This document shows positions 4,101 through 21,681 of a DNA stretch of 64,000 bases, piece by piece. A model generated the notes under the pieces. The model searched no databases, was not told where the DNA came from, and saw nothing but the letters and a program-made list of their open reading frames with translations. The position numbers were made by a program, and so were the translations under genes. This stretch comes from Candidatus Rifleibacteriota bacterium. Lineage in GTDB: Bacteria; Muiribacteriota; Ozemobacteria; Ozemobacterales; Ozemobacteraceae. Position 1 is the stretch's first letter, and every line of letters starts with the position of its first letter. The stretch is taken from contig JAAYVD010000168.1 in assembly GCA_012517355.1 (NCBI GenBank), positions 1-64,000 on the forward strand, read 5' to 3'.

Positions 4101-7100
4101 TGGGCGAGCTGCCGGGGGCCGCCGACCTGCCGTCCATCCTTCCCCCCCTGCAGGAGGCGGCTTTCGCCCGGCTCGAAACGATGAGCCCGGGGGATATCCT
4201 GACCATGCCGGTTTCAGAGGACCGGGAAACCACCGCCCTGAGCCGCCTCCTGGAAATCCTGCAGGAAGCGACCTATCATTGCCAGTCCCCGTGGAACCCC
4301 TGGGTGATCGTGCAGGGGGTCCGCCTACTCCTCGATCGGGGGGTGGTTCCCGGGGTCAGCAACCACCTGGCCACCCTGGGCATGGCCGCCGTCCAACAGG
4401 AGCGGTATGACCGCATCCGATGGCTGGTCCCGCTCGCCCGGGCCTTCCAGGCCCACCCGGCGGAAAAGGGCGACAAGACCTGGGGAGACCTGTTGCTGGG
4501 AGCATACCTCCTGCCCTGGATCCAACCGCTGCCGGACTGTCTGGCCTGTCTGGCCAGGGCCCGTCTGGGAGATCCCCGGGAGCGGGAAATGTCCATCGCC
4601 AAATATTCCCTGGTGCATGAGTTTCCCATGATGGTGACCATGGGAAGGCCCTGGCCGGAGCTGGCCCGGTTGGCCCAGGCCAGCCACACCACCGCCCGGG
4701 TCCTCCTGAGCTTTCCGATCGAAGCCCTGTTCGTCTCTTTCCAGGCCTTGTGCCGGTGCATGCTTGGCGAGACCTCGGCCCCCTGGTCGCTCTCGGATGC
4801 CACCTTCGACCACGAGGCCTGGTTCGGAACGTTCCGGGGCAACCCCCTGGAGCCCCTCTTCGGCAAGGCGTTCGTCTGGCTCCTGCGGGTGAACCTGCTC
4901 TTCGACCGGATTCCACAGGCCGTGGAACTGCTCGAGAGGATCGAAGATCGACTGCTGTTCAGCCTCGGTATGAGCATCGAACTGGGAGAGTACCACACCA
5001 TGGCCGCCCTCATCCGGTTGAGACAGGCCGGGGAGGAGGGCGCCCCGCCCGGGGAGGGAGGCACCGTCCAGCTCCCGCACCAGCCGGCGCGAAACGCCGG
5101 CACCCCCCCGGCCGATGAGGCGGAGAACCCCCTCGACGTGCGCGATACGGGCCTTTCGCGCCGCCAGCCGGCGCGGCCAAGGGGCCCTTCCGACCTCGTG
5201 CCGGTCGGCCCCGAGGTGCCCGCCAGGGTCGCCGCCCACGCCGGCTTCCTGGAACGGGCCGCCACTTCGGCGCCGTTCACCTTCCGGCACAAGAGCCTGC
5301 TCGTGCAGGCCCACCTGGCGCGGCGGGCGGGCCGGACGGACGACTGGCTGGGGATGATGACCGAAGCCATCGACCTGGCGCAGCAGGGAGGGTTTTCCCC
5401 CGATGCCGCGCTGGCCCACGAACTGCTGGGCCGCTGGTGGCTGGCCCGGGGGAATACGGGCTACGGGCAGCTCCACCTGCGGCGGGCGTTCGAGTTCCAT
5501 TCCCTGCTGGAAGCCCGGCCCCAGGTGGACCGGCTGCGCCACGAGTTTCCCCACCTGTTTCTCGGCCTTTCCTCCAGCGGAGACGGCCGGGCCTCCCCGG
5601 CCGCCACCATCCATGCGGGGGCCGAACTGTCCCTGCCCGCCCTCACGCTCGACGCGGGATTCGTGCTGACCGCCAGCCGCGCGCTGGCCGCCGAGTTCCG
5701 GCCCGCCCCCCTGCAGCGGCTGCTGCTCCGGCTCATGCTGCAGTCAGCCGGGGCCCAGCGGGCCTCCCTGGTGCAGGAGATGGATGACCCGTTGGCGGAG
5801 CGCGAACCGGGCGTGGCGCGCCGCCCTCCGCGGCGGCAGGGGGGAACCCGTTCCGGCGTCGTGTCGGTCGGGCCGCCCACATCCGGCTGGAGCCTGCTGG
5901 CCACGGCCGAGACGGCGGCCGGGGGCATCGTCTTCCCCCGGGGGCAGACCGGGAGGCGCACCGACGCCGGCAGCGCCGACCGGCTTCCCATCGGGCCCCT
6001 GCGGTTCGTTCGGGAGACGGGGCACCCCCTGCTGGTCCGCGACGCCCAGGCCGAACCGCCCTGGAACCAGGATCCCTGCCTGCGCCGGCGGGGAACGCGG
6101 GCCCTGCTCGTCCTGCCGCTGGCCAACCAGAGCCGGGTGGTGGGATACGTGCTGCTCGAGCACGGCACCCAACCGGGCGCCTTCACCACCCACCACCTCG
6201 ACCCGCTGGCCATCCTGGGGGCCCAGGCGGCCGGGCAGCTGGTCCAGGCCAGGAACCGGCGGGACCTGCAGCAGGCCAACCGCGCCCTGCGGGCGGAGAT
6301 GCAGGACCGGATCCGGGCGCAGCACGAACTGGCGGCCGCCGAGCGGTTCCGCCGCACCCTCGTGGACAGCCTCGAAGACATCGTCGGCGCCACCGACGCG
6401 GCTGGCCGCGTGACCTTCCTTTCCCCCGCCGGGTTTGAGGCCTTCCCTGGCTGGCAGACTCCGCGGGGATCCCCACCCACCGGCGAGGCGATGCTCCAGG
6501 GGCAGGGCCACGAGGATGGGACCAGGTCTTCGGGAGATCGGGAGCGCCGCCGGAAAACCGGTCAGCGGGAGCCGACCGGGCGGGGTCCCGCGACTGGCGG
6601 GCCGGCGGGAGGTCCTGGGAAGGTCACCCCGGACGGGGCGATCGGCCCTTTGGCATCGCGCGCAAGGGGCGTCGAACGCCCCCAGCCAGGACGGCAGGGT
6701 GGCCCCTGTGCGATGCGCGAAACTCGCGTTTCGCGCCGCCATCCGTGGCGGCACAGGGGCACTTCCGACCTCGTGTCGGTCGGGATGGCGGACATCGTCC
6801 CGGCCGGGCCAGCCCGGGACCTGGCGGTCGGGTTTGCCGCCGACCCGCTTCCGGTGTTGTTGGGCGGGTCAGCGTCCGAAGTGGCCGACTGGCCCTGGCG
6901 GAACGTCGAACGGCACGTCGAGACCCCCGGGGGGCGGCGGGTCCTGCTGGTCAGCACCCGCCCCCTGGGCCGGGCGGGGGCGGGCTGGGTGTTCACCCTG
7001 CACGACATCACCCAGCGCCGGGTCCTGGAGGGGGAGTTGCTGCAGGCCACCGAGCGGGAGCAGCAGCGGGTGGGCCGGGAGCTGCACGACGGCCTGTGCC

Positions 7101-7852
7101 AGGACCTGGTCGGGAGCAAGCACCTGGCCTACCTGCTGCGGGAGCAGCTGCAGGCGACCGTTCCGGCCCTGGCCGAGACCGCGGGGCACCTGCACCAGGC
7201 CCTCGACCGGAGCCTCGAGCAGACCCGGGCGCTGTCGCACGACCTGTCGCTCTATTCCGACCGGCTGTCGCTCGGCCAGCACCTGGAGCGGCTGGCGGGC
7301 CACCTGCGGCAGGCCTGGAGGGTCCGGGTCACGGTGCGGGCCCGCGGCACCCCGCCGGTCTTCACCCCCACCGAGATCCTGCACCTGTTCCGCATCGCGC
7401 AGGAGGCGGCCGGCAACGCCCTCCGGCACGGCGGGGCCACGGCCCTGTCGTTCACCCTGGCCCGGGCGCACGGGAAGAGAACCCTCACCATCACCAACGA
7501 CGGCCGGCCCTGGGCCGACCGGGACCAGGCGCCAGACTCTGCCGACCTGCCTGCTGCCCTCCCGGGCAACCGCCCGGCCCCGCCGCGGGGCATTCCGCCG
7601 GCCCAGATCCCCGAGCCTGCACCGATAGGCGCCAGACGAGGGGGTGGTCGACGTCAGGAGCCTCCTGAGGCAAAGTCCTGCGGCACCCCTCGAGTTGGTG
7701 CCGACGGGGGAGCGGCAAGCTCCAGGCCGGCCGATCCCCGGCCGGGGATCGGCCTGCGAACCATGGAATACCGCGCCAATCTCCTCAACGGCCGTCTGCA
7801 TCTGCGCCGCGGCCGGCCGGTCACCGTCACGGTGACCCTCCCCCCCCTCTGA
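1112..7852 (+). CDS. Giant hybrid Ser/Thr kinase - AAA ATPase - TPR-like - GAF - PAS - NarL-type histidine kinase
   Basis: A 2246-residue cytoplasmic sensor kinase. Residues ~25-290 are a Ser/Thr kinase: HRDVTPANV (about 139-147), then IDFS in place of DFG, then YLAPEQ. A Pro/Arg/Thr-rich linker follows to ~435. An AAA/STAND ATPase starts at LVGRQRE (~437), with Walker A GVSGIGKSA (~470) and Walker B VFLLVDD (~597). A long helical TPR-like region leads to a GAF domain (~1510-1713), a PAS domain (~1740-1960) and a HisKA_3 dimerisation domain with phospho-acceptor His in RELHDG (~1991). The HATPase has an N box (RIAQEAAGNALRHG) and a late G box (GIGLRTMEYR, ~2212). Three palindromic elements lie in frame (about 1342-1366, 1560-1587, 1864-1891). 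A ~75-residue Pro/Arg-rich insert splits the HATPase, and ~120 residues split the PAS domain. ATG follows AGGAAGG with almost no spacer. The probable partner is the response regulator at 8.7-9.4 kb. Catalytic competence of the interrupted HATPase is uncertain. Confidence 0.88.
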   Translation: MKLFRRSVLPLGSCRFRPGTVLAQSTHSLVIRGHCLQAGQPVILKTIPLEARTPARLAGFERESGHLAAVAAIPGVVQCLLRQPRGPIPAIVFRDPGASAWHLHLQGPRLARLPLPQRLRLLARLAGILHRVHQAGLVHRDVTPANVVWLPGRDLLELIDFSLAGPPRPAPRRASPNLEGTLAYLAPEQTGRLHLAQDHRLDLYSFGLTGFEILTGVHPFAGLAAEELIHAHLAVIPPALSATGLPVPDEGEELFARLLAKDPADRPPDAGVVAAALADLADRLAATPVASRGGHRVGKGATATTAAGTSRAVAPTRRSPLPTVGRLAGAARSAPDRKAPDRPTAIRRTTTTPATTRSEAVRPTATRPTTVRPTPARSGAPRSAGNGVSRAPSTKRRAAPPPSMAPRTTAARSAASPPPAAKTPVRARLRAPDLATPLVGRQRETAWLCRKLQPGSGPPARAVIIAGVSGIGKSALAHQFLAGLGAAPDRPWLATAKGERDGQQGPLGTLRALFQQVARFGLSEPPASRSRLAKGLQASATADWQALALLDPDLVRLGGKSPAEVRSTSTDQELALRLSLAAFSETLGRTGRRVFLLVDDLPWTDAPSRRLLEFLLSKQGDQGPFTLLATWRTGADGEPPERLVAQVMGWRALGVPVECLDLAPLPAKAIGELVQSLVSRPLPPSRLAREATRLQRLTGGNPLGLAQVLRSLALVPGFDPTAPATAWQEAIGRAGGLAISGSLPDLLASRLVGQTPEVRRWLHRAACLGHQFEADLLARAAGVPPGTVAKAMESATGAGLVVPTEATAPLPPPVRWRFAHDQVRTVCLGLFPQAEANAWRARLARAVAAVAPDPPDDASLLRLATLIEPVARTIPDPDECWQAVTWLGAGGWLASLIPDFETAQRWLDLACDLGEALRPTGSRRPILRRFQEERMRILFLAGNFPAGEREFERLCADDRSSPGFLQLVTRKAHGLRHDPKRLPEVIDQCLNALGASLGELPGAADLPSILPPLQEAAFARLETMSPGDILTMPVSEDRETTALSRLLEILQEATYHCQSPWNPWVIVQGVRLLLDRGVVPGVSNHLATLGMAAVQQERYDRIRWLVPLARAFQAHPAEKGDKTWGDLLLGAYLLPWIQPLPDCLACLARARLGDPREREMSIAKYSLVHEFPMMVTMGRPWPELARLAQASHTTARVLLSFPIEALFVSFQALCRCMLGETSAPWSLSDATFDHEAWFGTFRGNPLEPLFGKAFVWLLRVNLLFDRIPQAVELLERIEDRLLFSLGMSIELGEYHTMAALIRLRQAGEEGAPPGEGGTVQLPHQPARNAGTPPADEAENPLDVRDTGLSRRQPARPRGPSDLVPVGPEVPARVAAHAGFLERAATSAPFTFRHKSLLVQAHLARRAGRTDDWLGMMTEAIDLAQQGGFSPDAALAHELLGRWWLARGNTGYGQLHLRRAFEFHSLLEARPQVDRLRHEFPHLFLGLSSSGDGRASPAATIHAGAELSLPALTLDAGFVLTASRALAAEFRPAPLQRLLLRLMLQSAGAQRASLVQEMDDPLAEREPGVARRPPRRQGGTRSGVVSVGPPTSGWSLLATAETAAGGIVFPRGQTGRRTDAGSADRLPIGPLRFVRETGHPLLVRDAQAEPPWNQDPCLRRRGTRALLVLPLANQSRVVGYVLLEHGTQPGAFTTHHLDPLAILGAQAAGQLVQARNRRDLQQANRALRAEMQDRIRAQHELAAAERFRRTLVDSLEDIVGATDAAGRVTFLSPAGFEAFPGWQTPRGSPPTGEAMLQGQGHEDGTRSSGDRERRRKTGQREPTGRGPATGGPAGGPGKVTPDGAIGPLASRARGVERPQPGRQGGPCAMRETRVSRRHPWRHRGTSDLVSVGMADIVPAGPARDLAVGFAADPLPVLLGGSASEVADWPWRNVERHVETPGGRRVLLVSTRPLGRAGAGWVFTLHDITQRRVLEGELLQATEREQQRVGRELHDGLCQDLVGSKHLAYLLREQLQATVPALAETAGHLHQALDRSLEQTRALSHDLSLYSDRLSLGQHLERLAGHLRQAWRVRVTVRARGTPPVFTPTEILHLFRIAQEAAGNALRHGGATALSFTLARAHGKRTLTITNDGRPWADRDQAPDSADLPAALPGNRPAPPRGIPPAQIPEPAPIGARRGGGRRQEPPEAKSCGTPRVGADGGAASSRPADPRPGIGLRTMEYRANLLNGRLHLRRGRPVTVTVTLPPL
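5135..5209 (+). repeat. Palindromic element, copy A (in frame inside hybrid kinase)
   Basis: A diverged copy of the ~85-nt palindromic element. Hairpin 1 remains as CGCGATA/TTTCGCG-like arms and hairpin 2 as CCGCCAGCCGGCGCGG. The right outer arm (CCAAGGGG) and the third hairpin core (CCGACCTCGTGCCGG) are still visible. It is translated as DVRDTGLSRRQP and onward to DLVPVG, the same frame as copies B and C. It sits in a Pro/Gly-rich loop of the TPR-like region. Confidence 0.7.
5791..5872 (+). repeat. Palindromic element, copy B (in frame inside hybrid kinase)
   Basis: A copy with the core GAGCGCGAACCGGGCGTGG, followed by CGCGCCGCC and GGCGGCAGGGGGG, then the TCGTGTCGGTCGG end. It is translated LAEREPGVARRPPRR and ends VVSVG, in the same frame as copies A and C. 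It falls within the GAF region of the kinase. Confidence 0.72.
6701..6784 (+). repeat. Palindromic element, copy C (well preserved, in frame inside hybrid kinase)
   Basis: The best-preserved intragenic copy. The outer stem is GCCCCTGTGC (6702-6711) with GCACAGGGGC (6751-6760), a perfect 10-bp pairing. Hairpin 1 is GCGCGAAAC (6715-6723) with GTTTCGCGC (6728-6736). Hairpin 2 is GCCGCC with GGCGGC (6735-6740, 6747-6752), sharing two bases with hairpin 1. Hairpin 3 is CCGAC/TGTCGG near 6766-6780. It is translated AMRETRVSRRHPWRHRG and ends SDLVSVG. It lies within a ~120-residue insert that splits the PAS domain. Confidence 0.88.
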
Positions 7853-8520: not shown

Positions 8521-8580
8521 GCCGCCCTCCGTGCCGGTGTTACCATGCCGGCAAGGGGACTCTTCCGACATCGCTGCGGT
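8521..8580 (+). repeat. Palindromic element, partial copy D0
   Basis: The second half only of the element: GCCGCCCTCCGTGCCGG, then GGCAAGGGGACTCTTCCGAC and ATCGCTGCGG. It lies directly upstream of full copy D in the same orientation, giving a 1.6-copy tandem. Confidence 0.65.
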
Positions 8581-8665
8581 CCGCCCCTTGGCGATGCGCG
8601 AAACGGGCGTTTCGCGCCGCCGTCCGTGGCGGCAAAGGGGTATGGCCGACATCGTGTCGGTCGGG
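8581..8665 (+). repeat. Palindromic element, copy D (near-consensus, intergenic)
   Basis: Near-consensus copy. The outer arms are CCCCTTG and CAAAGGGG. Hairpin 1 is GCGCGAAAC/GTTTCGCGC with loop GGGC. Hairpin 2 is GCCGCC/GGCGGC. Hairpin 3 is CCGACA (8646-8651) with TGTCGG (8655-8660). It lies in the gap downstream of the response regulator. Confidence 0.9.
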
Positions 8666-9631: not shown

Positions 9632-10657
9632 TCAGTCCGTTCCGCGCTCGGCAGGCTCGTCGCCGCTCCCCTGGGAACCGGGTTCCGTCGCCGGGGAGGG
9701 CGGCCCCTTGGCGGAGCGCGAAACGGGCGTTTCGCCCGGCCCTCCGTCGCGACCAGGGGGGGTGACCGACATCCTGTCCGTCGGGTCGGCGGGGTCAATG
9801 GGGCGAGCCGGGTCGTCGCGCCCCGGCACCCGACGACAGATCCGGAGCAGGTCGCGGAGTTTCGGAGCGGGCGCATAGAGAGTCGCGGGCATGGCCGATA
9901 CCGCGTCGAACCGTTGCTCGGTCAGAATCTGCGCCTCGGCCAGCTCGCGCAGATGGCGGGCGAGGAAGGCCTTTCCGGCCGACTCGTCGGGGAAGGTGTC
10001 GGGAAAGCGCGTCCGTAGCAGGTTCCAGGCCTTTTCGAGGGAAACCGGTTGCGGCACCTGGGCCAACAGGAAGCACAGGCGGGTCACGGCCGTCAGGGGG
10101 TCCGCGCCCGGAGCCTCGCGGCCGCCGGGCAGCAGGCAGGTGAGGGCATAGGTGGGGGCCAGCAGCAGGATCCGCCAGAGCAGGTGGAGGAAGTTCCGGT
10201 AGGAGGAGCACCCGCCACCCACCCCGACATAGTCGTCGCCCTGCCGGAAGGGATCGGCAGCCGCCCGGTGGGCGGCGCGCAGGGTCCCTCGGAGAGCCCA
10301 GGCATAGGTTCCGACCATCAATACCGTATAGGTTATCAGGACCAACTGGTTGTATATGGCCCTTCCGAATTCCGTCCACATCCCCCACTCCCAGAAGAGA
10401 CGCAGGAAGTCCGCCACCAACCCGCCCAGAAGGAGAGCCACGATCCACAGCGGGAACCAGACGAAAACCGCCCAGATCAGGGCCAGGAGGCCAAGGTGCA
10501 GGAGCAGGAAGAAGATGCCCGTGCCGAGGCGCAGCCGCCGCGGCTCGACCGGCAGGTCGTCGGCCACGAACGGCTTGAGATGCCCCTGCAGCCGGTGCAG
10601 GATCTCCGCTTCGGGAATCTCGGGGGCCGCGGTCGGCGTGGTGGACCCGGGTTCCAT
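9632..10657 (-). CDS. Multi-pass membrane protein with a repeat-derived C-terminus, unknown function
   Basis: A 341-residue protein that I do not recognise. The chosen start is ATG at 10657, preceded by GTGGA at ~5 nt; an in-frame start further upstream would add 39 non-conserved-looking residues. There are at least three membrane segments (GIFFLLLHLGLLALIWAVFV, WIVALLLGGLVADFL, LVLITYTVLMVGTYAW). A conserved-looking soluble stretch follows (FPDTFPDESAGKAFLARHL). The last ~60 residues are Pro/Gly-rich and include translation of palindromic element copy E read on the opposite strand (TDRMSVTPPGRDGGPG, then ETPVSRSAKG). The stop codon lies past the element, so insertion probably replaced or extended the original C-terminus. 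Confidence 0.7.
   Translation of the reverse strand: MEPGSTTPTAAPEIPEAEILHRLQGHLKPFVADDLPVEPRRLRLGTGIFFLLLHLGLLALIWAVFVWFPLWIVALLLGGLVADFLRLFWEWGMWTEFGRAIYNQLVLITYTVLMVGTYAWALRGTLRAAHRAAADPFRQGDDYVGVGGGCSSYRNFLHLLWRILLLAPTYALTCLLPGGREAPGADPLTAVTRLCFLLAQVPQPVSLEKAWNLLRTRFPDTFPDESAGKAFLARHLRELAEAQILTEQRFDAVSAMPATLYAPAPKLRDLLRICRRVPGRDDPARPIDPADPTDRMSVTPPGRDGGPGETPVSRSAKGPPSPATEPGSQGSGDEPAERGTD
9703..9786 (+). repeat. Palindromic element, copy E (inside the 3' end of a minus-strand gene)
   Basis: GGCCCCTTGGCGGAGCGCG, then AAACGGGCGTTTCGC, then a diverged hairpin 2 and CCGACATCCTGTCCG. The element is oriented plus while the gene is minus, so the peptide differs from that of copies A-C, yet the frame is open throughout. 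Confidence 0.85.
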
Positions 10658-11032
10658 GATGTCCACAGGATACCATGACCGCCCATTCCTTTCCGAAGCC
10701 GCAGGCCCCGGGGCGACAGGGGATACCCCAACGACCGGGCATCCCGGAAGCGCCGTCGATTCGCCCCAGGGCAAGCGGGAGGGGGCGGTGGTGGCCCTCC
10801 TGGGGGTGGGAGGGGAAGACCCACGGTCTCACCTGGCCCGGGAGGGGTCGACCCGAGGGGGGCCACCCGCCGGAGACGGCCAGCGGCCCCTGCTCGCCCT
10901 TCACGAGGGCGGATCACGTGATCGGCAGCCCTCCCAGTGGCAGGATCGCGGGAATCATGGCAGAATGTCAGCGCCACCAGTTCCCGCGGAGGCAAGACCG
11001 TCCCACATGAACCAGACATCGCCCCGGACCAG

Positions 11033-11111
11033 CCCGACAGGATGTCGGAAGTGCCCCTTTGCCGCCACGGATGGCGACGCGAAACGCGAGTTACGCGCAC
11101 CGCCAAGAGGC
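11033..11111 (-). repeat. Palindromic element, copy F1
   Basis: Minus-oriented full copy. It starts with CCCGACAGGATGTCGG (hairpin 3), then GCCCCTTTGCCGCC, then GACGCGAAACGCGAGTTACG. It ends at the outer arm GCCAAGAGGC. Confidence 0.85.
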
Positions 11112-11168
11112 ACTCCTTTGCCGCCCCCGATGGCGGCGCGAAACGACCGTTTCGCGCACCACGGAGAG
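11112..11168 (-). repeat. Palindromic element, partial copy F2
   Basis: Minus-oriented copy lacking hairpin 3. TTTGCCGCCCCCGATGGCGG, then GCGCGAAACGACCGTTTCGC. Directly adjacent to F1, so the two form a head-to-tail tandem. Confidence 0.78.
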
Positions 11169-20103: not shown

Positions 20104-21417
20104 TCAGGGAGTCAGCACTTTCAGCAGCCAGGCGTCATACCCCGCGTGGCCGAGGGGAACGTCGTCGCCGCCGGAGGGAACGCCCTTCCCGCCGACCAGC
20201 CAGTTCCCGTCGGCGGTCTCGCGCAGGTCGAACCCGGCCTCGTCGAACCGGCCGCCGAGGGTCTTCTGCCACAGCAGGGTGCCGCCGGCGTCCAGGCCGA
20301 CCAGCCACAGGTCGCTGCCGCCGTGGGTCCCCTCGACGTCGCCGTCGAACGAGGCGGCCTCGCCGCAGAACACGAACCCGCCGTCGGCGGCTTCACGGAT
20401 GCTGTAGGCGAGATCGTCGGCCACCCCGCCGTAGCAGCTCTGCCACTCGATCGTTCCCGAGGCATCGAGTTTCAGGACCCAGGCGTCGAGGCCGCCCATC
20501 CAGCCTTCCGGGATGCCCGACAGGGAACTGGCCGTTCCGGCGACGACGAACCCGCCGTCGGAGGTGGGGCGCACGGCGTAGGCACGCTCCTCGTCGACGC
20601 CGCCGTAATCCTTCTGCCAGAGCACCGTCCCGGAAGCGTCGAGGCGGGCGACGAGCACGTTGCCGAGGCCGAACCCGTCGGCGTCCTCGCCGGCGGTGTG
20701 GGAGGCCACGCGGCCGGCCACGACGCAGCCGCCGTCGGCGGTCGGTTCGACGGAGGCGGCCAGGTCGTCGAGCGGGCCGCCCAAACTGGTGGCCCACTGC
20801 AGGGCACCGGCGGCGGTCACCTTGACCACCCAGGCGTCGGTGCCCCCGAGCGCGGTGGCGACGTCCCCGTTGAGGGAATCGGCTCCGCAAGCGAGGAGGA
20901 ACCCGCCGTCCCCGGCCTGGCGGACGGCGTAGGCCGTGTCCTCGCCGTTCCCGCCGAAACACCGCTTCCACAGGAGGTTTCCGGCGGAGTCGAGGCGCAT
21001 GAGGAGCACGTCGGTGCCGCCGTGGTAGCCGATGGCGGGGTCTTCGAGGAAGGTGCTGCCGGCGACCACGAAGCCGCCGTCGGAGGTCTGGTCGATGGCC
21101 TGGGCGAGATCGTTCTCGGGGCCGCCGTAGAGTTTCGTCCAGGCGGGTTTGCCGTCGGCTCCGTAGCGGACGACGAGGACGTCCTTGCGGCCGTGGGCGC
21201 CGGCCAGGTCGCCGTCGCGCGAGTTCGAGAACCCGGCCGCCACGCAGCCGCCGTCGGCGAGCAGGACCAGGCCGTGATAGGCCTCGTCGGTGGTCCCGCC
21301 CAGGACGTGCTGCCAGGCGAGGTCCTCGACGTAGGCGCGGGACTGCGCCGACAAGGGAACGAAGCTGCCCAACACCCCCTGCAGGAAAACCAGGGCCATC
21401 ACCGCCAGATTCGCCAT
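20104..21417 (-). CDS. Exported repeat protein (beta-propeller-like DGGFVVAG repeats)
   Basis: A 437-residue exported protein. The start at 21417 is set by AGGAG ~8 nt upstream and by a signal peptide (MANLAVMALVFLQGVLGSFVPLSAQS). The mature part is about seven units of 52-60 residues. Each contains a version of GG..DD.AY.....DGGFVVAG followed by WV.KLDA.G...W, for example TSDGGFVVAGTASSLSG and EAADGGFVFCGEAAS. Such repeats are typical of large secreted or surface proteins and probably fold as a propeller. There is no C-terminal sorting domain, and the protein ends shortly after the last repeat (YDAWLLKVLTP). Function unknown; adhesion or polysaccharide binding is a guess. Palindromic element G lies 30 nt upstream of the start. 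Confidence 0.85.
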   Translation of the reverse strand: MANLAVMALVFLQGVLGSFVPLSAQSRAYVEDLAWQHVLGGTTDEAYHGLVLLADGGCVAAGFSNSRDGDLAGAHGRKDVLVVRYGADGKPAWTKLYGGPENDLAQAIDQTSDGGFVVAGSTFLEDPAIGYHGGTDVLLMRLDSAGNLLWKRCFGGNGEDTAYAVRQAGDGGFLLACGADSLNGDVATALGGTDAWVVKVTAAGALQWATSLGGPLDDLAASVEPTADGGCVVAGRVASHTAGEDADGFGLGNVLVARLDASGTVLWQKDYGGVDEERAYAVRPTSDGGFVVAGTASSLSGIPEGWMGGLDAWVLKLDASGTIEWQSCYGGVADDLAYSIREAADGGFVFCGEAASFDGDVEGTHGGSDLWLVGLDAGGTLLWQKTLGGRFDEAGFDLRETADGNWLVGGKGVPSGGDDVPLGHAGYDAWLLKVLTP

Positions 21418-21447: not shown

Positions 21448-21531
21448 CCCGACCGACACGATGTCGGAAGGGCCCCCTTGCCGCCACGGATGGCGGCGCG
21501 GAACGCCAGTTTCGCGCACCGCCAAGGGGCC
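21448..21531 (-). repeat. Palindromic element, copy G
   Basis: Minus-oriented near-consensus copy. Hairpin 3 reads CCGACACGATGTCGG. The outer stem is GGCCCCTTG with CAAGGGGGCC on the sense strand, different bases from copy C but still paired. Hairpins 1 and 2 are present with small changes (GCGCGAAAC/GTTCCGCGC). It is in the 5' leader of the exported repeat protein. Confidence 0.88.
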
Positions 21532-21557
21532 TACCGACACGATGCCGGAAGTGGGCC
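21532..21557 (-). repeat. Palindromic element, partial copy (hairpin 3 only)
   Basis: ACCGACACGATGCCGG followed by AAGTGGGCC repeats the 3' end of the element directly next to copy G. This is the same tandem habit as at 8.5 and 11.1 kb. Confidence 0.6.
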
Positions 21558-21681
21558 ACGGGCGCCACGAGGGCGCTCCTCCGCGGACCCTTCATCGGCA
21601 GAAAGTTCCCCCGGCCGAACCCCGGCCGGAGGGCGGTGGGGGTGACCGGGCGGATGCCAACCATGGGAAACCCGTTCAGAG

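Follow-up and report, generated by a model that had tools for sequence, protein, structure and literature searches.

Three in-frame copies of a hairpin-forming repeat in one bacterial hybrid kinase gene, probably insertions of a mobile element carried as passenger peptides

Introduction

Palindromic sequences inserted in frame into protein genes are best known from Rickettsia. The Rickettsia palindromic elements (RPEs) are short palindromic repeats, partly intragenic, which lie in frame in many unrelated intact genes (PMC2229807, PMC10969869, PMC3767692), and the genome of R. japonica has a GC content of 32% (PMC3767692). The repeat described here resembles RPEs in being palindromic and in frame in unrelated protein genes, with 22 clusters whose homologues lack the element. 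RPEs, however, are about 100-150 bp long and belong to obligate intracellular bacteria, whereas our units measure 60, 81 or 84 bp and are GC-rich; RPEs have terminal inverted repeats and form one long stem-loop, whereas our unit combines a three-way junction with a separate 3′ hairpin. Further differences are the head-to-tail arrays, the roughly 660 copies in a 7.1-Mb genome, and a host that is neither Rickettsia nor Wolbachia, the repeat occurring in this genome and in a few members of its family. The first-pass annotation of this locus had noted an echo of RPEs, which holds for the behaviour of the repeat and fails for membership, since sequence, architecture and taxon all differ.

Among other described systems, MITEs such as ERIC, YPAL and the 107-bp Correia element are likewise non-autonomous, form hairpins and occasionally produce in-frame gene fusions (PMC2229807), whereas in our repeat neither long terminal inverted repeats nor a TA motif at the ends are seen, and the element is asymmetrical with one 3′ hairpin. 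PARCELs, too, are palindromic DNA in tandem arrays, and the peptide that they repeat, of 25 residues, is about as long as ours (PMC2996958). They are, however, amphipathic tandem protein domains in particular ORFs, while the present repeat is scattered, lies mostly between genes and is read in several different frames. REP/BIME sequences with RAYT (Y1) transposases consist of many short palindromes in mosaic and tandem arrays at high copy number. Our repeat has the same abundance of short palindromes, arrays and large copy number, but its units are longer and enter genes, and the single Y1 gene of the genome is flanked by another repeat. The in-frame behaviour known from Rickettsia is shown here by an unrelated repeat in a GC-rich genome of large size. 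Some sister genomes have this repeat while in others it is undetected, so that filled sites lend themselves to direct comparison with empty ones.

Results

The kinase gene and its three elements

The window, that is, the whole stretch of 64,000 nucleotides analysed here (bases 1-64000 of contig C71), belongs to a GC-rich genome of 7.1 Mb in 184 contigs. Its hybrid kinase gene (Table 1) is a single open frame of 2246 codons, free of stops and of the frameshifts that would have marked it as a pseudogene, and its product comprises a Ser/Thr kinase, an AAA_16 ATPase, a linker region, GAF, PAS and HisKA_3 domains and an ATPase. The window was searched with R2, a covariance model built from copies in this genome, A, B and C among them. 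The three matches in the gene lie on the + strand and start in an identical codon phase, in agreement with the earlier description of three palindromic elements in one orientation and frame at 5135-6784; that span points to the right locus, although its start falls a few bases inside copy A. With copy B inside it, the GAF match extends over 172 amino acids compared with 143 in the orthologue from genome G001, and copy C leaves the PAS match in two parts, at profile positions 2-34 and 68-109.

The G001 orthologue comes from the same genus, from a genome in which neither the 81-bp model R2 nor the 60-bp model R3 finds a copy. It is a stop-to-stop frame of 2019 codons, 54% identical to the window kinase, and it aligns over its entire length with no counterpart of A, B or C, so that the element peptides are missing from this lineage, in which the repeat is undetected, as expected of RPE-like in-frame insertions; polarity is read here from few genomes, one close kinase orthologue having been found. 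The alignment was also to show insertions that match the element boundaries precisely, and it leaves all three elements out, whereas for A and C, which are surrounded by poorly conserved sequence, the edges of the sites are not fixed to the residue. Over the aligned codons outside the elements, nucleotide identity at codon positions 1, 2 and 3 is 0.66, 0.71 and 0.50. This is the pattern of purifying selection, which indicates that the kinase gene is still selected, as the first-pass annotation had supposed.

Given an orthologue only 54% identical, some of the length change around the elements is not element-derived. At the C site, 115 residues are extra relative to G001, of which about 28 come from the element. 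Except for a stretch at 6646-6702 that weakly resembles the element, the remainder is single-copy in the genome; a second repeat family in this part of the insertion was ruled out, since no other copy of it exists in the genome. Elsewhere in the gene, 41 residues between the motifs of the kinase ATPase (7616-7738) are missing in the G001 orthologue and are not the element. Pfam detects HATPase_c weakly in that orthologue and not in the window kinase, and the orthologue (L061 3271-9327) carries lineage-specific inserts of its own, of 12-39 residues, at other linkers.

Table 1. Kinase gene and repeat copies in the window, with R2 or R3 model scores
Feature	Position	Strand	Evidence
Hybrid kinase gene, host of copies A, B and C, 2246 aa	1112..7852	+	Single ORF; Pfam; full-length orthologue in G001
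Copy A, 81-nt type, in linker	5127..5207 (model match 5124-5207)	+	R2 62.7 bits; missing in G001 orthologue
Copy B, 84-nt subtype, in GAF domain	5784..5870	+	R2 56.1 bits
Extra sequence at the C site, missing in G001	6455..6698	+	Comparison with G001 orthologue
Copy C, 81-nt type, in PAS domain	6699..6783 (model match 6699-6782)	+	R2 104.1 bits
Element copy outside the kinase gene	8580..8663	+	R2 103.3 bits
Diverged element copy	9700..9783	+	R2 67.9 bits
Element copy	11031..11114	-	R2 86.4 bits
Element copy	21450..21533	-	R2 101.1 bits
60-bp sister element	21530..21590	-	R3 74.1 bits; alignment A2

The repeat family

Forty-one aligned copies define a unit in which an outer stem encloses two inner hairpins, forming a three-way junction, and is followed by a 3′ hairpin. 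The 81-base unit equals exactly 27 codons, the subtype that includes B has three extra bases (84 nt, 28 codons), and a 60-bp sister family joins a shorter head to the same 3′ hairpin; all three sizes are divisible by three. On either strand, intact copies fold far better than their shuffles, with z between -2.9 and -5.7. Across genera, the 3′ hairpin is paired in every sequence and both sides have changed at two pairs. For the 81-bp family by itself, as many double changes as observed arose in 107 of 500 shuffles, which makes this a weak test of covariation. In copy C the fold is kept (z -5.7 against shuffles) and the outer stem carries a paired T-to-G/A-to-C change (alignment A1), whereas in A and B it is lost (z -1.1 and +1.7). 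Mismatches to the family consensus number 18 of 84 positions in A and 7 in C. Copies A and B look older than C, which agrees with the greater divergence ascribed to them before.

Isolated copies end on the right with GGTCGG and start after a looser GGWNGG motif, so that a GGWNGG-like motif stands at both ends as a direct repeat, variable on the left and fixed on the right. The element is probably mobile, and its ends are to be read as uncertain by a few bases. The elements form head-to-tail arrays in which the commonest spacing, found in 33 of 57 tandem pairs, is exactly 81 bases. In the window, an 81-bp and a 60-bp element stand head-to-tail at 21450-21590 on the - strand, a mosaic tandem with the common 3′ hairpin. 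Close by, a - strand gene contains six direct repeats (20189-21142) that recur about every 174 bases and probably encode a protein repeat domain. No Rfam family matched at its gathering score within the window.

At least 150 matches to the family were found genome-wide, all of the listed ones scoring, and 20 stretches of 20 kb sampled blind to the repeat (400 kb) held 37 copies, compared with none in the same DNA reversed; A, B and C are therefore not chance matches. Scaled from this sample, the estimate is about 660 copies in the 7.1-Mb genome. Among relatives, R2 finds copies in G002 and one weak match in G004, and R3 finds copies in G000, G002, G004 and G010. A scan for the exact core across 84,980 species, which may leave out this genome's own records and those very close to it, returned two stray single matches, neither of them titled Rickettsia or Wolbachia.

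Insertions in other genes

Coding potential over 240 bases on each side of an element cluster was used to recognise intragenic copies. At least 22 clusters, those of A and B included, have both flanks coding in one frame that stays open across the element, with no stop in any of the 22, and two more lie between different frames of one strand. The hosts include an NAD-dependent epimerase, a YdjC-type protein (deacetylase), an ATP-grasp protein, a pseudouridine synthase, a sulfatase and cyclases. The YdjC-type gene has gained a net 81 bases, exactly 27 codons, relative to its G001 orthologue; once the 27 element residues are removed the flanks align without a gap, and alignments to homologues with solved structures are interrupted where the element lies. 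Homologue alignments of the epimerase and the pseudouridine synthase likewise break around it. More than one cluster per gene also occurs in three other genes (L114, L178 and L202).

The family is strongly depleted inside genes. By a strict test on the repeat-blind sample, 0 of 28 clusters lie inside genes, compared with 49% of random positions; a looser count places up to 63 clusters of a combined, biased set inside coding segments. Because the two counts differ in this way, the genic share is uncertain, between near zero and about a third. Under the strict genic density, three insertions in a gene of 6.7 kb are unusual (expectation 0.09), while under the looser share they are unremarkable, about two such genes being expected by chance. 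When gaps and orientations were roughly counted with a simple gene finder, some of whose segments were faulty, neither a gene orientation nor convergent or divergent gaps were clearly preferred.

Frame and selection on the elements

The first-pass annotation had taken the open frame of the diverged copies as a sign of selection on the gene, a reading that is not supported for the elements themselves. The family consensus is free of stops in all six frames, but so are 22% of dinucleotide shuffles, and six-frame openness was on this ground rejected as a designed property. Of the changed codons, 13 of 74 are synonymous in coding copies, as against 123 of 702 when non-coding copies are read in that frame, an equal share; the score counts differences from the family consensus and hence includes subfamily differences. 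Indels in coding copies were multiples of three in 26 of 26 cases as against 187 of 203 elsewhere (P 0.23), which is not significant, and a restriction to whole codons was set aside. The element peptides thus look like tolerated passengers under no detectable constraint.

The shared frame proved no peculiarity of the kinase either, for it is the family's commonest frame among genic copies (9 of 22 clusters; usage against uniform, P 0.010, or 0.048 with A and B left out). Three copies would share one of six frames in about 3% of cases under uniform usage and in 7.5% under the frame usage of other genes. The common frame of A, B and C is therefore mildly unusual (P about 0.03-0.08) and by itself weak evidence.

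Discussion

The most probable reading, to which we give a probability of about 0.87, is that a mobile repeat, non-autonomous and hairpin-forming, inserted independently on three past occasions to give A, B and C, and that its peptides are carried as passengers. In each event, an 81-nt unit would have inserted by active transposition and added whole codons, 27 of them, or 28 for the 84-nt subtype. Since whole codons are added and the GC-rich consensus is stop-free in any frame, a genic insertion would read through and be translated as a short extra loop in the folded protein. Selection would remove most such insertions and leave survivors at tolerant sites, here a linker, a GAF domain and a PAS domain, with the extra peptide as a passenger and the function of the kinase presumably retained. 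The family amounts to a large set of natural insertion experiments, in enzymes as well as in signalling proteins, and it is a case in which insertions can be seen to be mostly purged and survivors mostly unconstrained.

It could be argued instead that the inserted peptides were recruited for kinase function, for example as linkers or interaction loops, with frame and sequence kept by selection. Three insertions in one gene where the strict density predicts 0.09, the single frame of all three copies and the fold retained by C would fit such a role. Yet coding and non-coding copies do not differ in their synonymous fraction, A and B have accumulated many differences, L114, L178 and L202 also hold multiple clusters, and the looser genic share yields about two such genes by chance; we consider recruitment quite improbable. 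Selection might also act on the repeat as nucleic acid, were it a structural RNA or a regulatory element (terminator, mRNA stabiliser) kept for its function, with genic copies as side effects. Its strong fold on both strands and mostly intergenic position are what one would expect, but the rough count of gaps and gene orientations gave no clear preference and an Rfam match is absent, and as the main explanation this is unlikely, while the repeat may have a role of a secondary kind.

The two remaining explanations concern the gene itself. A decaying pseudogene or an assembly artefact might collect repeats, and the expansion of several linkers together with the loss of a detectable HATPase_c, weakly seen by Pfam in G001, could be taken as signs of decay; against this stand 2246 codons without a stop or frameshift, the full-length alignment and the codon-position identity of a selected gene, and the same pattern recurs on many contigs, which makes this explanation very improbable. 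That the peptides are ancestral to the kinase and were lost in the orthologue, the DNA repeats having spread from the gene, is extremely unlikely: the small number of genomes that give the polarity, with one close kinase orthologue, leaves some room for it, but the repeat lies mostly outside genes, and it interrupts members of many unrelated protein families in which the homologues, proteins of solved structure among them, are without it. Insertion of a mobile repeat thus remains the preferred reading.

As for how such a repeat might move, a putative mobilising enzyme would recognise the 3′ hairpin common to the 81-bp and 60-bp families. A bolder and rather doubtful extension is a modular superfamily in which one 3′ hairpin serves integration and the heads are interchangeable, the sizes 60, 81 and 84 nt being seen because only gene-compatible lengths persist; insertion would then be precise, and the family a continuing source of loops of 20 to 28 residues. 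The search for a mobiliser covered Y1 transposases and found no element within about 1.5 kb of the one Y1 gene; as that gene is flanked by another short repeat, the Y1 transposase is unsupported in this role. Y1 (RAYT-like) transposases number one each in G000 (L239 1171-1962) and G002 (L240 1162-1965) and none in G001, and both genes are flanked by another short palindrome, which contains GTCCCCGGAACT.
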